Source of the DNA: Psychrobium sp. MM17-31 | Lineage (GTDB): Bacteria; Pseudomonadota; Gammaproteobacteria; Enterobacterales; Psychrobiaceae | Length of the DNA: 64,000 nt | Reading direction: 5' to 3' | Assembly: GCF_022347785.1 (NCBI RefSeq) | Contig: NZ_JAKRGA010000002.1 | Coordinates: 248,001-312,000 of the forward strand | Program-made: the position numbers and the translations under genes | The notes under the pieces: model-generated | The model's database searches: none | Seen by the model: the letters and a program-made list of their open reading frames with translations, nothing else | What the model was told of the DNA's origin: nothing | Shown: one piece after another, positions 7,414 to 49,300 of the stretch | Position numbering within the stretch: position 1 is the first letter of the stretch | Layout of the letters: the number at the start of each line of letters is the position of its first letter

Positions 7414-9864
7414 ATGTCGGTAGACGCTGATCAAGCATTAATAAAAAAGCTGATTCCCTATTATCGAGACGCTAATTTTAACGAGCGTTTTGAGCATGTT
7501 ACTCGTGACATTTCTAAATCACGCCGCTTCCTCGTTAAGATGGAGGTTAACCGTTTATACAACGATTGCAATCGCGTGATAGATTTGCGTGGCCGCGTTG
7601 ACGCACCGTGTTTTGAACATCCCCATGAAGGGCTTAATCACCACCTTGATGATGTAGCACTTAATGTATTTGAAGAAGCGATTTCCGTATATGGCAAGTT
7701 CACCATGGGTGTCTTTGAAGAAGTTACCAACGCCAAAAACAGTTATCGTGAAAAACAGCAACGCGAAGATGAAGCGCGCCGCAACGAGCTCAAAAACAAA
7801 AGCCTTAGCGCTACTAAAAATGCCGCTGAAGAAGCTGATATCGCCCCTGAAGAAATTGTCATTCCGCCAAACTTCGCGAGAAAAATCAGCCTAACTAATC
7901 TTAACCCACGAATCGAAGAGCGTATTAACATCTTAACCCGTGTTAAGGTGCGTCTGGCCAACGGACGAACTATTCACGGCTTAACGACGAACATGTCGAC
8001 TCATGGCGCTAAAATCAAACTGACAAATACCTATAAAATCGCAGTAGGTGATTTACTTTCTGTCGAGTTTGTTGAAATTGAGCAACCCGATGACAACCCA
8101 GTATCTCTTGATTTAAGTTACAAGGTTATCGATGCCCACTCTAATGGCGATCAGCATTGGTTTAATTTACATCGCGTACACCAACAAACGGATGTCGATG
8201 AAGTATTAACTAAATTCATTAAAAAAGAGCGCCCGTCATCATCCACCGATGTTGAGCACATTATTGAAGCGGTTCGCTCATTGGGCTATCAATACATTCA
8301 TCTCAATAAAATGTCTGGCTTACCTATTTTCTTCGAACGGCAAGAAGACACTTATTTACCAATGTTCGCGCTAAGTAATTTTGAAAACAAGAATCTGCTT
8401 AGTTACTGGCACACTCACAACAATATGCTGCGCATTTCATCGCTCATTTCGCATGATCGTATTCAACAAGCATTGGACAATGGCCATCCAGAAAAACCAA
8501 TCTTGTTATTTTGCTTTACCCATATTGCCAAAGGGCGCAAGTTTTTCTACAGCGCCACAGAATACGAGCTAGAACAAACTGGCCTCACTGACTTGTTTAT
8601 GCAATTTGGTGCCAGCAAAGACAGTTGGAAGGTTTATCAGCTATACGTTAGTGACGTAAAAGACTACGAATGGCATATGCCTGACGTGCTTCCACAGCAC
8701 TTAGTACTCAAAGAAAAATCGACCCTTGAGCAGCATCGTCACCTGCTTAAACTTCACGATATCGAAGTCATGGCTTATCTATTTGAAATTGCCACAGGTG
8801 ATAGCTTTAAACATTATCGCATGCGCAAGCCAACAGAAACGCGCATTAATCAGCTGCAGCAATTCGGTCACAAAGACACGAAAGACTCAGGCATTAAACT
8901 GATTGAAACCAGTATTATGACCATGAGTAATCGCCGTGAAGATCGCTTTAACTATCAAACCAAGGTCAGCGTTTTACACAAGCGTAAACAGTTTGCAGGC
9001 ATGACGGTCGATTTTTCGGTGCACGGTATTCAAGTGAATATGAGTGAAACCTTTGACGTTAAAAAAGGTGATATCTTGAATATGGTAATCCCTATTTTTA
9101 ACAAGGCGGGTAAACAACCAGAAGACACCGTTTTGCATTATGAAGTGATGCGAGTTGCCAACGAGGGGAAAATCCTCAACCTGAAAATCTCCATTACCCC
9201 TGAAACGGAATTTGGTCCAAAAGCAGTGTATCGAATTATTAAAGGCAACCAGCACAAGTTAACAGCGCAGATTGCACCACCAGCTAATTTCACAAAATCG
9301 CTGATCCTGCAGTATTGTCATTACATCAGCTCGTTAATCATTATGATTTCGAAGATGCAAAACAGCTATCGGATCTCGCAGGTCGTGACACCGTCACAGC
9401 ACAATCCGCTGTTTAATTTATTTTCGGTGCTATCTTCAATCGACAGTCATTGTGATATGTCACCAATTTCTCAAAATAACCTGTTTAAAGAGATCTTTGG
9501 CAATACCTTAATGCAGTTGGCCGCTAATTCGCCAGCGGCTAGTAAAGAAGTGTACGTGCAATTGATTAACGAAGGGCAAGATTACCGAACCTTGACCCAC
9601 CAATTCGAGAGTTTCACCAGTGCCCAAGAGCATTGTGAATTCATTGAAAGCGCCACTAAAGAAGGACAGCTTTTTGCACTGCGTATTAGCATGAGTCGCA
9701 GTCCAAAAATGAATTACAAGGCGTTTTCACGAGAAATTATCTACGCGGCAAAACAAGCGAGTTTTAAGACGCGACAACTTCAAGCTGAATTAGACGCGGT
9801 GGTTGCCACTGCTGAAATCGTCGATATTATGAGTGAAGTGCGTCAACGCTTTAATTGCACCTAA
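7414..9864 (+). CDS. Large multi-PilZ-domain protein
   Basis: This is a cytoplasmic protein of about 816 residues with at least two PilZ-type modules. One has R-x-x-x-R-like basic residues followed by NMSTHG, near residues 180-280. The other has RREDRF followed by DFSVHG, near residues 505-600. The rest is soluble, with a charged helical stretch near residues 110-150. I prefer the ATG at 7414, with a weak TTGAG upstream, over an in-frame TTG at 7339, because related proteins as I recall begin with the acidic helix that follows this ATG. It is divergent from radA. It probably responds to cyclic-di-GMP, but its output is unknown. No GGDEF or EAL domain is present. Confidence 0.8.
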   Translation: MSVDADQALIKKLIPYYRDANFNERFEHVTRDISKSRRFLVKMEVNRLYNDCNRVIDLRGRVDAPCFEHPHEGLNHHLDDVALNVFEEAISVYGKFTMGVFEEVTNAKNSYREKQQREDEARRNELKNKSLSATKNAAEEADIAPEEIVIPPNFARKISLTNLNPRIEERINILTRVKVRLANGRTIHGLTTNMSTHGAKIKLTNTYKIAVGDLLSVEFVEIEQPDDNPVSLDLSYKVIDAHSNGDQHWFNLHRVHQQTDVDEVLTKFIKKERPSSSTDVEHIIEAVRSLGYQYIHLNKMSGLPIFFERQEDTYLPMFALSNFENKNLLSYWHTHNNMLRISSLISHDRIQQALDNGHPEKPILLFCFTHIAKGRKFFYSATEYELEQTGLTDLFMQFGASKDSWKVYQLYVSDVKDYEWHMPDVLPQHLVLKEKSTLEQHRHLLKLHDIEVMAYLFEIATGDSFKHYRMRKPTETRINQLQQFGHKDTKDSGIKLIETSIMTMSNRREDRFNYQTKVSVLHKRKQFAGMTVDFSVHGIQVNMSETFDVKKGDILNMVIPIFNKAGKQPEDTVLHYEVMRVANEGKILNLKISITPETEFGPKAVYRIIKGNQHKLTAQIAPPANFTKSLILQYCHYISSLIIMISKMQNSYRISQVVTPSQHNPLFNLFSVLSSIDSHCDMSPISQNNLFKEIFGNTLMQLAANSPAASKEVYVQLINEGQDYRTLTHQFESFTSAQEHCEFIESATKEGQLFALRISMSRSPKMNYKAFSREIIYAAKQASFKTRQLQAELDAVVATAEIVDIMSEVRQRFNCT

Positions 9865-45685: not shown

Positions 45686-46654
45686 ATGGCTAACATCGCA
45701 GAAGACAATTCATTAACCATCGGTAAAACGCCGCTGGTTCGTTTAAACAAAGTTTCTAACGGCAAAGTTATCGCTAAGGTAGAAAGCCGTAATCCAAGTT
45801 TCAGTGTTAAGTGTCGTATCGGCGCTAACATGATTTGGGCCGCTGAAAAAAATGGCGAGTTAACTAAAGACAAAGAACTGATTGAAGCGACAAGTGGTAA
45901 CACAGGTATCGCACTAGCCTTCGTAGCTGCATCACGCGGTTACAAGCTAACCCTTACTATGCCAGACACCATGAGTCTTGAGCGTCGCAAGCTACTAAAA
46001 GCATTAGGAGCTAATCTAGTGCTTACTGAAGGTGCTAAAGGCATGGGCGGCGCTATTGCAAAAGCGCAAGAGCTAACGGATAGCGCACCTGAAAAATACG
46101 TGTTATTAAAGCAGTTCGAAAACCCAGCAAACCCAGAAGTTCACGTCCAAACCACAGGTCCAGAAATCTGGGAAGACACTGATGGTGAAATCGATGTATT
46201 CGTTGCTGGTGTCGGTACTGGTGGTACTATTTCTGGTGTGAGCAAATACATCAAACAAGTACAAGGTAAAGCAATCACTTCTGTGGCTGTTGAGCCAACT
46301 GCTTCACCTGTTATTACACAAGCTAAAGCAGGCGAAGAATTAACACCAGGTCCACACAAAATTCAAGGTATCGGCGCTGGTTTTATTCCTGCAAACCTAG
46401 ATTTAGACCTCGTTGATTTAGTTGAACAAGTAAGCAACGAAGACGCTATCGAAATGGCACAACGTCTAATGGACGAAGAAGGCATCCTAGCGGGGATTTC
46501 TTCAGGTGCCGCTGTTGTTGCTGCAAACCGCATCGCTGAGCGTCCAGAATTTGCTGACAAAAACATTGTTGTAATCTTACCAAGCTCTGGTGAGCGTTAC
46601 CTATCGACTGCATTGTTTGCTGATATCTTTAGCGATAAAGAAAATATTCAGTAG
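45686..46654 (+). CDS. cysK: Cysteine synthase A
   Basis: CysK makes cysteine from O-acetylserine and sulfide with PLP. The 322-residue protein has the PLP lysine K42 in [11 protein letters not shown], the substrate-binding TSGNTGIA (about 70-77), the phosphate-binding GTGGTISG (near 177-184) and the ISSGAA segment near 271. These are CysK-like rather than CysM-like. AGGAAAG precedes the ATG and a terminator follows. CysB control would be expected, but I cannot identify a site with confidence in the 237-base gap upstream. Confidence 0.97.
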
Positions 46655-46675
46655 TCGCGAATGACAAAATAATGG

Positions 46676-46703
46676 AAAGGGAAACTTAGGTTTCCCTTTT
46701 TTG
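46676..46703 (+). terminator. Rho-independent terminator of cysK
   Basis: The stem AAAGGGAAAC / GTTTCCCTTT (4-base loop) is followed by T residues. It lies 21 bases after the cysK stop. Confidence 0.93.
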
Positions 46704-46858: not shown

Positions 46859-47254
46859 ATGCCAATACAGACACTAGCAGTACTGCAAACAGAGTTTACT
46901 ATTCACAGCTTTACGCCTGAAACACAGCCAGATGCCAGCATTTTTACCCAAGACATCTACTTTATTGGTAAAACCAGCGATGAATTATCCGTTGTTGTGC
47001 CATCAGAGCTCAAACTTAACAGCCTCGATAGTGAAACTGGCTGGCGCTGTTTAGAAGTGATGGGGCCACTTAATTTCTCACTCACTGGCATTTTATCTGG
47101 TATCGCGGGCGTCCTCGCCAGTGCCGATATTAGTATTTTCGCGATTTCTACCTTTGACACCGACTACATTCTCGTTAAACAAGACTGCTTGTCTAAAGCC
47201 GTCGAAGTACTAGAGAAAAACGACTACAAAGTTAACCAACTCGTTGAATCATAG
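46859..47254 (+). CDS. ACT-domain protein
   Basis: A 131-residue protein resembling the ACT_7/CASTOR-type amino-acid-sensing domains. It has an N-terminal strand-rich half and a C-terminal ACT fold with LNFSLTGILSGIAGVLASADISIFAISTFDTDYILVK spread over about 78-117, written here only as landmarks: GILSGIAGVL (helix) and ISIFAISTFDTDYILV (strand). ACT domains bind small molecules, usually amino acids. GGAG lies nine bases before the ATG. It is the first gene of a run leading to dapE, so lysine or diaminopimelate sensing is a possible but unproven role. Confidence 0.85.
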   Translation: MPIQTLAVLQTEFTIHSFTPETQPDASIFTQDIYFIGKTSDELSVVVPSELKLNSLDSETGWRCLEVMGPLNFSLTGILSGIAGVLASADISIFAISTFDTDYILVKQDCLSKAVEVLEKNDYKVNQLVES

Positions 47255-47260
47255 CGGCCG

Positions 47261-47752
47261 ATGACCACTGCAGAAAAACCAGCTCAGCAACTTGTAAAAC
47301 TACCACTGCTTGCACCAGTAAGCGGTGAGGCATTGCCCATTTCTCAGCACTATGAGCCAGCAATCAGCCACGGTTTGCAAGGTCAAGGCGTGATGTTTAA
47401 GCCACTAGGCAGCCGCCTTGTTGCGCCTTGTGACGGCATAATCAGTGAAATAGCCGCGACCAATCATCAGCTAAAAATGCAGGCGTCACACGGCGTTATT
47501 GTTGAAATAACCTGTGGCTATCAAGCGCTCGATACCCATGGTTGTGGCTTTGTGCGCAAGGTCAACGTTGGTCAGCGAGTGAAGTGTGGCGACGTGCTGC
47601 TAGAACTCGACTTAATTAACATTCGAAAACAAATACCTCACCTTGATATTGCCCTACTTCTCACTAACGGTGTACTTACCGTTAAGCCTCACTATGGCAA
47701 TGTCAGAGCCAATGAAGAAACCGTCCTCACTGGCGTGATTAAACCCAAATAA
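47261..47752 (+). CDS. Stand-alone EIIA(Glc)-like protein lacking the phosphorylation histidine
   Basis: The 163-residue protein is similar along its whole length to the glucose-specific EIIA of the phosphotransferase system: LLAPVSGEALPI near 16-27, RLVAPCDGIISEI near 52-64, NHQLKM with the conserved auxiliary histidine at H69, then GQRVKCGDVLLELD. In EIIA(Glc) the next block is VHFGIDTVEL, where the histidine accepts phosphate. Here the aligned block is ITCGYQALDT, with Thr84 at that position. It therefore probably cannot take part in phosphotransfer. It sits six bases after the ACT gene and 16 before yffB. A regulatory, ligand-binding or structural role is inferred. Confidence 0.85.
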   Translation: MTTAEKPAQQLVKLPLLAPVSGEALPISQHYEPAISHGLQGQGVMFKPLGSRLVAPCDGIISEIAATNHQLKMQASHGVIVEITCGYQALDTHGCGFVRKVNVGQRVKCGDVLLELDLINIRKQIPHLDIALLLTNGVLTVKPHYGNVRANEETVLTGVIKPK

Positions 47753-47768
47753 CATTCTAAGGATCATC

Positions 47769-48116
47769 ATGACTACTACCATTTACGGCATCAAAAACTG
47801 CGATACCATCAAAAAAGCACTCAAGTGGTTAGATGCCAATGGCGTTGAATACACTTTTCACGACTATCGCGTAGATGGCTTAGATGCCGCGCTACTAGAC
47901 TCTCTCGTGGCCGTTAGCGACGTAGAGCAAATGCTAAACAAGCGCAGTACAAGTTATCGCGACCTGAACGATGAGCAAAAAGCAGATACTTCTGAAGGTG
48001 CACTAAAGGCGCTGTTTATAGAAACGCCGACACTCATTAAGCGCCCATTACTAGTTAGTGGCGACAAAACACTGCTCGGCTTTAAAGACGCGCAGTACCA
48101 AGAATTTTTCGCTTAA
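47769..48116 (+). CDS. yffB: ArsC/Spx-family protein YffB
   Basis: A 115-residue thioredoxin-fold protein of the ArsC family. [10 protein letters not shown] carries the single N-terminal cysteine (C11), [10 protein letters not shown] lies near 57-66 and the [17 protein letters not shown]-terminal motif follows. YffB-type members are thought to be glutathione-dependent reductases. It lies directly upstream of dapE, the same neighbour as in E. coli and many other bacteria. Confidence 0.93.
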
Positions 48117-48145: not shown

Positions 48146-49300
48146 ATGTCATATCTCAACGCCGTTAACGATCAAGCCCTACTCGATTTGAGTATCGATT
48201 TACTCTCTCGCCCGTCTATTACACCTCTTGATGAAGGCTGCCAAGACTTAATGGCGAGCTACCTTGAACCACTTGGTTTTAACATAGAGCCAATGCGCTT
48301 TGAAGATACCCAAAACATGTGGGCGCGCAAAGGCGACAGCGGCCCGCTGTTTTGTTTTGCTGGCCACACCGATGTGGTACCAGTTGGCGAAGAAAGCCAT
48401 TGGCACAATCCGCCGTTTGAACCCAAGCTCATCGACGGCATGTTACACGGGCGCGGCGCGGCGGACATGAAAGGCAGCCTTGCGGCGATGGTTATTGCTA
48501 CCAAACGTTTCGTCGAGCAGCATCCAAATCACAAAGGCTCTATTGCGTTTTTGATCACCAGTGATGAAGAAGGACCTTTTATTAACGGCACAACCCGCGT
48601 AGTAGACACCCTTGAAGCGCGCAACGAAAAGATTCAATACTGTATCGTGGGCGAGCCAAGCAGCACCGCTAAATTAGGCGATGTCGTAAAGAATGGACGC
48701 CGAGGCTCCTTAACAGGTGATCTCGTCATCAAAGGAAAACAAGGCCATGTTGCCTATCCGCATCTTGCTACCAACCCCATTCACAAAGCGATGGCTGCGC
48801 TAGATGAGCTAGCAAAAACGGTATGGGATAACGGCAATGAGTATTTCCCGCCAACCAGTTTCCAAATTTCCAATATCAACGGCGGCACAGGCGCAGGTAA
48901 TGTCATTCCGGGAATTTTAAAAGTCCAATTTAACCTGCGATTCTCCACTGAATTGACCTTCGATTTAATCAAGGCGCGCATCATTGCCATTCTGGATCAA
49001 CATGGCCTTGATTACGATATCGATTGGACCTACAACGGCCTACCGTTTTTAACTGACCACGGTCAATTGTTAAACGCTGTCCGTTCATCCATTAAAGAAA
49101 TTACGGGCTATGATACCGATCCACAAACCAGTGGCGGCACCTCTGACGGTCGCTTTATTGCGCCAACGGGCGCCGAGTTAGTCGAATTGGGACCTGTTAA
49201 CGCAACTATTCACCAAGTCAATGAATGCGTGAAGTTTTCTGATTTAGAAATACTCACCGATGTTTATCAGCGCCTACTCGAAAAGCTATTGCTTGATTAA
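48146..49300 (+). CDS. dapE: Succinyl-diaminopimelate desuccinylase DapE
   Basis: DapE removes succinate from N-succinyl-diaminopimelate in lysine and peptidoglycan precursor synthesis. The 384-residue di-zinc M20 enzyme has the metal ligands in FAGHTDVVP (near 70), GRGAADMKG (near 103) and TSDEEGP (near 136), and a late histidine in TIHQVNECV (near 355). Its length matches the family. The start lies 29 bases after yffB. Confidence 0.96.

Follow-up and report, generated by a model that had tools for sequence, protein, structure and literature searches.

A crr descendant without the phospho-acceptor histidine in Psychrobium, in genomes with no match to EI or HPr

Gene content of the locus

The window is a stretch of 64,000 nucleotides from the marine bacterium Psychrobium sp. 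MM17-31 (contig NZ_JAKRGA010000002.1, positions 248,001 to 312,000). It carries a gene for an EIIA(Glc)-like protein, called here the crr-like gene, among the following features (positions of the window).

45686..46654, + strand: cysK, cysteine synthase A (TIGR01139, 467.5 bits, cut-off 350.95); left boundary of the earlier cysK-ptsHI-crr gene order
46674..46701, + strand: terminator-like hairpin 3' of cysK (pattern scan alone)
46859..47254, + strand: ACT-domain protein (ACT_7, CASTOR1-like), 131 aa (PF13840, 76.6 bits)
47261..47752, + strand: crr-like gene, EIIA(Glc)-like protein without the acceptor histidine, ATG start, 163 aa
47465-47467, + strand: His69 codon (CAT), corresponding to E. 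coli H75 (TNH69 against TNH75, alignment to 1f3g)
47510-47512, + strand: Thr84 codon (ACC), at the phospho-acceptor H90 position (IT84CG against VH90FG, alignment to 1f3g)
47769..48116, + strand: yffB, ArsC-family reductase (NF008107, 136.3 bits, cut-off 121)
48146..49300, + strand: dapE, succinyl-diaminopimelate desuccinylase (TIGR01246, 561.6 bits, cut-off 361.8)

The end of the ACT gene and the start of the crr-like gene are separated by 6 bases. Because a terminator-like hairpin follows cysK, the ACT, crr-like, yffB and dapE genes are probably transcribed separately from it; a promoter scan of the + strand ahead of the ACT gene did not find a sigma-70-like site. The best PDB matches of the ACT protein were to human CASTOR1/GATS-like protein 3 (E 2.5e-17); CASTOR1 is the human arginine sensor. 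When PADLOC was applied, neither the crr-like protein nor the ACT protein gave a match, and a defence-system role was rejected.

The crr-like protein matched PF00358 (PTS_EIIA_1) over residues 16-136 with 84.1 bits (cut-off 27.2), the only such match in the source genome. In phmmer, residues 14-124 aligned without gaps to residues 13-123 of E. coli IIAGlc (1f3g) with an E-value of 3.5e-18. The scores lay below the NCBI cut-offs for a named Crr or glucose IIA protein (PRK09439, 81.3 of 212 bits; TIGR00830, 73.9 of 97.5). Though descended from crr, the protein lacks some of the features that define an EIIA(Glc) phosphocarrier.

Orthologues and PTS genes in the genus

The genus set consisted of nine genomes (G000 to G008) from the same genus and family (f1) as the window, three of which are less than 90 % complete (80, 82 and 88). 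NCBI taxonomy places Psychrobium in the Shewanellaceae, Alteromonadales. Exactly one PF00358 match was found in each of the nine genomes, and the crr-like open reading frame was single and intact in every one. At the H90 position the orthologues carry Thr (4), Ile (3), Val (1) or Tyr (1), and histidine in 0/9. For comparison we used a canonical set of 28 sequences, made up of the best matches and the inspected dapE loci (a subset of the matching genomes, with the fused proteins of G050 and G086 excluded); H90 was present in all 28. The H75 position is His in eight orthologues and Tyr in one (G008). Two residues, R52 and H93, are newly invariant in the genus and replace canonical K58 and K99.

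When the models for EI (PF05524), HPr (PF00381) and EIIA_2 (PF00359) were searched, each matched in 0/9 genus genomes, and E. coli and the other controls were positive. The inventory covers these three models and PF00358. The nitrogen PTS is missing from the genus as well, the EI N-domain, HPr and EIIA_2 models matching none of the nine genomes. By these models, the genus has no phosphate donor for a sugar relay or for a nitrogen relay.

An earlier note on this DNA had described an EIIA(Glc)-like protein that keeps His69, has Thr84 at the acceptor site and sits in an operon with no other PTS component. This observation is correct and wider than stated. The PF00358 match and the 1f3g alignment agree with its description of the protein, and the lack of other PTS components extends genome-wide for EI, HPr and EIIA_2, without a second PF00358 match. 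The note had suggested looking for a canonical crr elsewhere, and the sole PF00358 match proved to be the crr-like gene itself; it had also asked whether close relatives keep the histidine, and none of the nine orthologues does. The threonine is another matter: it is present in the protein of the window and is not conserved among the orthologues (T/I/V/Y). A conserved Thr serving as a new phospho-acceptor is ruled out by this variation.

Origin of the crr-like gene

In some PTS-positive relatives of the same order, the genes run cysK-ptsH-ptsI-crr-yffB-dapE, with HPr of 85 aa, EI of 573-575 aa and H90 present in the crr product. The HPr and EI frames were read directly in three families, at loci L143 (f12), L129 (f10) and L125 (f13), and the spacing is the same in L154 (f12). 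At L122, L124 and L126 (f6, f20 and f16) crr, yffB and dapE are adjacent and no cysK lies within the stretch. Of the 14 genomes from other families that carry crr and were inspected, seven have the gene next to yffB; in two (G018 and G028) it is a matter of kilobases further upstream, and in the other five it falls outside the fetched stretch. From the seven genomes with crr beside yffB, the ancestral order would have been cysK-ptsH-ptsI-crr-yffB-dapE.

The order cysK-crr-like-yffB-dapE was observed at all eight genus loci with enough flanking sequence (the window and seven relatives). The ACT gene lies between cysK and the crr-like gene, in the slot of ptsH-ptsI of the PTS-positive relatives, at seven of these eight loci and is absent from L024. 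At that locus (G002, 7844-7995) the cysK and crr matches are about 150 bases apart, with no ACT gene.

Because the gene occupies the same slot as crr in the relatives, we read it as the remnant of crr in its own place. It is most simply a vertically inherited, in-place orthologue of crr, left after the loss of ptsHI, and foreign acquisition is ruled out by the shared slot. Synteny, gene inventory and alignment carry both the loss of ptsHI and the retention of crr. An ancestor with the full cysK-ptsH-ptsI-crr-yffB-dapE arrangement would have lost ptsH and ptsI from between cysK and crr, where the ACT gene now lies, and crr would have stayed; with no phosphate donor, the constraint on the acceptor histidine and on the docking face would then have been lost. 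In the phylogenetic tree, the nine genus members formed one group and the canonical sequences another, with at least five changes of the histidine state, a count drawn from few columns and long branches. The tree was not used to place family f7 (see below), given the few columns and the long f7 branches.

A possible cause of the loss comes from Shewanella. In the part available of a paper on sugar utilisation in that genus, the role of ptsHI-crr and ptsG is called a mystery, and it is argued that cells whose glycolysis is incomplete (no Pfk) are unable to supply a glucose PTS (PMC2996990). By analogy, incomplete glycolysis could be why the relay was lost in the Psychrobium lineage.

The same loss in a second family

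Family f7, another family of the same order (196 genomes, 52 genera sampled), has the same locus and the same histidine loss and is a second instance of what was found in the genus. The crr-like profile matched in 93 of the 196 genomes and in none of the other 103. Fifty of the 93 matching genomes entered the alignment; 43 were left out, including the fused proteins of G389 and G412. The H90 histidine is lost in 42 of the 50 aligned sequences (Gln in 25) and the H75 histidine in 33. Both histidines occur in only three sequences, all from genus g93 (L055, L056 and L058, from G436, G455 and G395). On the tree these three sit among sisters with Gln at position 90, and their acceptor histidine may have come back.

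When 39 f7 loci with the crr-like gene were inspected (L082-L121 without the fused L107), the neighbours of that gene included yffB at 38 loci, dapE at 37 and ACT at 26. As for the genomes with no match, 22 loci were inspected, and no EIIA was found before yffB in any of the 21 informative ones; the ACT gene stands directly before yffB at 14 loci. The remaining genome, G193 (L161), has a contig end 430 bases before yffB; it was kept outside the 21 and was scored as lacking the crr-like gene in the kinship-aware test described below.

Matches to the EI N-domain were present in 195 of the 196 f7 genomes. Among the matches listed, the open frames are 694-848 aa long and none has the 573-575 aa of PtsI, so that by length these proteins appear PtsP-like. 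The fused loci L054 and L059 (G389 and G412) contain open reading frames of 845-859 aa with an EIIA_1 match. An EI N-domain shares the frame with EIIA_1 in G389 (848 aa) and in one of those in G412 (845 aa), a multi-domain PTS protein.

Predicted fold and docking face

The best AlphaFold2 model of the crr-like protein, built from eight sequences, had a mean pLDDT of 73.8 and a pTM of 0.71 (the other four models had pLDDT 41-50). At E <= 0.001 it gave seven PDB matches, all of them IIAGlc structures (3our_B, TMq 0.81; 1gla_F, TMq 0.78). An M23/LytM-type hydrolase, which has the hybrid-motif fold in common, was rejected, as its best match had an E-value of 1.6e-3 and TMq did not exceed 0.46 among the matches listed. 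By prediction, and with a conserved Gly/Pro scaffold, the EIIA fold is kept.

The docking face was tested with 24 patch columns invariant in the canonical set, the patch residues being those of EIIA(Glc) complexes. With this list, 20 % of the canonical-invariant patch residues are kept in the genus and 16 % in f7, compared with 35 % and 34 % of the other invariant residues and 84 % and 69 % of the other invariant Gly/Pro. In the canonical set, mean entropy is 0.06 bit in the core patch against 0.67 bit in the rest. The corresponding values for patch and rest are 1.12 and 1.15 in the genus and 2.67 and 2.32 in f7, where the patch is the worse of the two. Canonical F71, F88 and V46 correspond to A65, E82 and Q40 in the protein of the window. 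Judged from these alignments, the scaffold has been preserved but the old EIIA docking face has not, and the suggestion in the earlier note of a retained EIIA interaction surface does not hold.

Selection

Selection was measured on the closest pair (G007 and G001); in the other pairs dS of the crr-like gene is saturated. For this one close pair dN was 0.037, dS 0.460 and dN/dS 0.081, with 40 synonymous and 14 nonsynonymous changes. In the same two genomes, dN/dS of the neighbours was 0.013 (cysK), 0.020 (dapE), 0.036 (yffB), 0.061 (ACT) and 0.122 (VanY, which is cut by a contig end). Mean identity of the crr-like protein within the genus is 51 %. In this pair the gene is under purifying selection and is less constrained than cysK, dapE, yffB and ACT. 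A pseudogene is ruled out by the ratio; the relaxed evolution against which the earlier note had weighed its own reading was not seen, though the gene does evolve faster than those four neighbours. Because the fold is kept and purifying selection acts, the protein still has a job.

Function and candidate partner

Among regulators that depend on phosphorylation, EIIA(Glc) is the textbook case. The known route of phosphate transfer is closed to the crr-like protein, which therefore cannot work as an EIIA(Glc) phosphocarrier in that way: H90 is found in none of the nine orthologues and EI and HPr in none of the nine genomes. Together with purifying selection, these results support the phosphorylation-independent role that had been suggested for it. 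The protein probably regulates something without phosphorylation, and its job would be a protein contact that no longer uses the canonical face.

As its partner in the genus we tentatively name class I adenylate cyclase, at less than even odds the likeliest candidate on grounds of co-occurrence and divergence. The crr-like protein would be a constitutive regulatory subunit on the C-terminal half of the cyclase, through a contact that goes back to EIIA(Glc) and was later rewired. PF01295 (class I adenylate cyclase) was found in all nine genus genomes and in the four PTS-positive genomes tested. In f7, 24 genomes from 11 genera had a PF01295 match above the cut-off; every one belonged to the 93 genomes with an EIIA match and none to the 103 without (Fisher's test, 2.8e-9 ignoring kinship; 0.0011 by genus). 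The value is 1.1e-9 without the fused G389 and G412 and the short doubtful match of G400, all three of which are included in the 93. G403, whose PF01295 match has five stops and lies below the cut-off, was scored as having no cyclase. The kinship-aware test found two independent pairs on supported branches and six on all branches, numbers at which significance is unreachable, and 69 of the 93 matching f7 genomes have no such cyclase. G316, G350, G351 and G380 each gave two matches to class I adenylate cyclase, within about 3 kb of one another in G350 and G380 (the f7 cyclase loci are L174-L200).

The five f7 cyclases read are 648-661 aa long and lack the last ~150 residues at the C-terminus. 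The genus cyclase is complete, with 803-808 aa in the five sequences read and with both Pfam domains in G000. When compared in blocks of 100 with the canonical cyclase of G256, its C-terminal half shares 22-28 % identity, against 42-59 % in a canonical pair; within the genus this half is 82-93 % identical between G000 and G007 and 47-78 % identical to G002 and G005. Such divergence is compatible with a partner surface that evolved along with the crr-like protein, but also with drift after PTS control was lost. According to the part available of PMC6877527, stimulation of the cyclase in enteric bacteria requires EIIA(Glc) in its phosphorylated form, and for that reason any contact with the crr-like protein must work differently. 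An inherited contact must also have changed, because the old docking face is gone. For the explanation as a whole, an in-place crr descendant with a rewired, phosphorylation-independent contact and the cyclase as the most likely partner, we put the chances at about even.

Alternative explanations

The best-surviving alternative is that the protein is disappearing: after the loss of ptsHI it would have kept a marginal role under weakened selection, with deletion lineage by lineage, and a defined partner would not be needed. The dN/dS of 0.081 in the closest pair speaks against this, as does the intact single frame in 9/9 genus genomes and in 50 f7 sequences. It would account for evolution faster than that of cysK, ACT, yffB and dapE, the 51 % mean identity in the genus, the docking face that is not kept, and the lack of a match in 103 of 196 f7 genomes with 21 informative loci of such genomes without crr. 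We consider it unlikely.

The ACT gene suggests another possibility, in which a CASTOR-like ACT protein would sense an amino acid and control the crr-like protein, replacing phosphorylation as the input. The two genes are 6 bases apart, ACT is present at seven of the eight genus loci and at 26 of the 39 in f7, its sequence resembles CASTOR1, and dapE, a gene of the diaminopimelate/lysine pathway, lies downstream in the operon. However, neither gene needs the other, as the crr-like gene occurs without an adjacent ACT in L024 and at 13 of the 39 f7 loci, and ACT remains at 14 f7 loci from which crr is gone. We regard such coupling as improbable. Its fuller form, in which an ACT protein that took the position of EI and HPr after the loss of the relay would supply the new input and make a regulator of amino-acid status out of one of carbon status, perhaps with class I adenylate cyclase remaining its target, is likewise a long shot.

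Still less credence is given to the form proposed in the earlier note, in which the protein would keep the EIIA surface as a permanently unphosphorylated inhibitor of glycerol kinase and permeases. The Gln at the H90 position in 25 of 50 f7 sequences does resemble dephospho-mimetic mutants such as V. cholerae H91A (PMC6877527, part available), but of the canonical-invariant patch residues 20 % survive in the genus and 16 % in f7, below the other invariant residues (35 % and 34 %) and far below Gly/Pro (84 % and 69 %). Continued phosphorylation, whether on His69, on a different residue or from a different donor, is hardly credible, as EI, HPr and EIIA_2 are absent from the genus, Thr84 is not conserved and H75 is Tyr in G008, even with His69 kept in 8/9 orthologues and His93 invariant in the genus. 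The reading we retain is the rewired contact without phosphorylation.

Relation to known systems

The crr-like protein resembles EIIA(Glc)/Crr of E. coli and V. cholerae in homology over most of its length, in predicted fold and in the auxiliary histidine, and it sits in the same genomic place as Crr of some relatives. Unlike Crr, it lacks the acceptor histidine, the canonical docking face and, in the genus, EI and HPr, and it scores below the NCBI Crr cut-offs. In the part of PMC6877527 available, dephosphorylated EIIA(Glc) acts by protein contact on PdeS and FapA, and the contact with IDE is reported as phosphorylation-independent. The regulation without phosphate proposed here would be similar; in the PdeS and FapA systems, however, the PTS sets the state of the protein, and no such switch is left for the crr-like protein.

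Brucella melitensis has an incomplete, regulatory-only PTS that keeps EI(Ntr), NPr and EIIA(Ntr), as far as the available part of PMC2937029 describes it. PTS proteins are kept there without PTS permeases; in Psychrobium, in contrast, the donors tested and the acceptor residue are gone. Shewanella, in the NCBI family that includes Psychrobium, also has a PTS of unclear use, but its relay genes are still present (PMC2996990, part available). Among titles and abstract openings, with most subscription papers outside the scope, no EIIA(Glc) without its acceptor histidine or without EI and HPr was described in this order. In PMC2405797, crr, Alteromonadales, Colwellia, Idiomarina, Pseudoalteromonas and dapE are all unmentioned.

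A lineage that keeps an EIIA(Glc)-like protein without donors or acceptor residue raises the question of which EIIA(Glc) jobs never needed phosphate. One bacterial order holds a series of intact pts operons, ACT-crr loci without the histidine and ACT-yffB loci without crr, in which the dismantling of an operon is on record, and this series makes the question testable. Annotation by PF00358 alone may label such proteins as sugar-PTS components, which, in genomes without EI and HPr, they would be unable to be by the known route.
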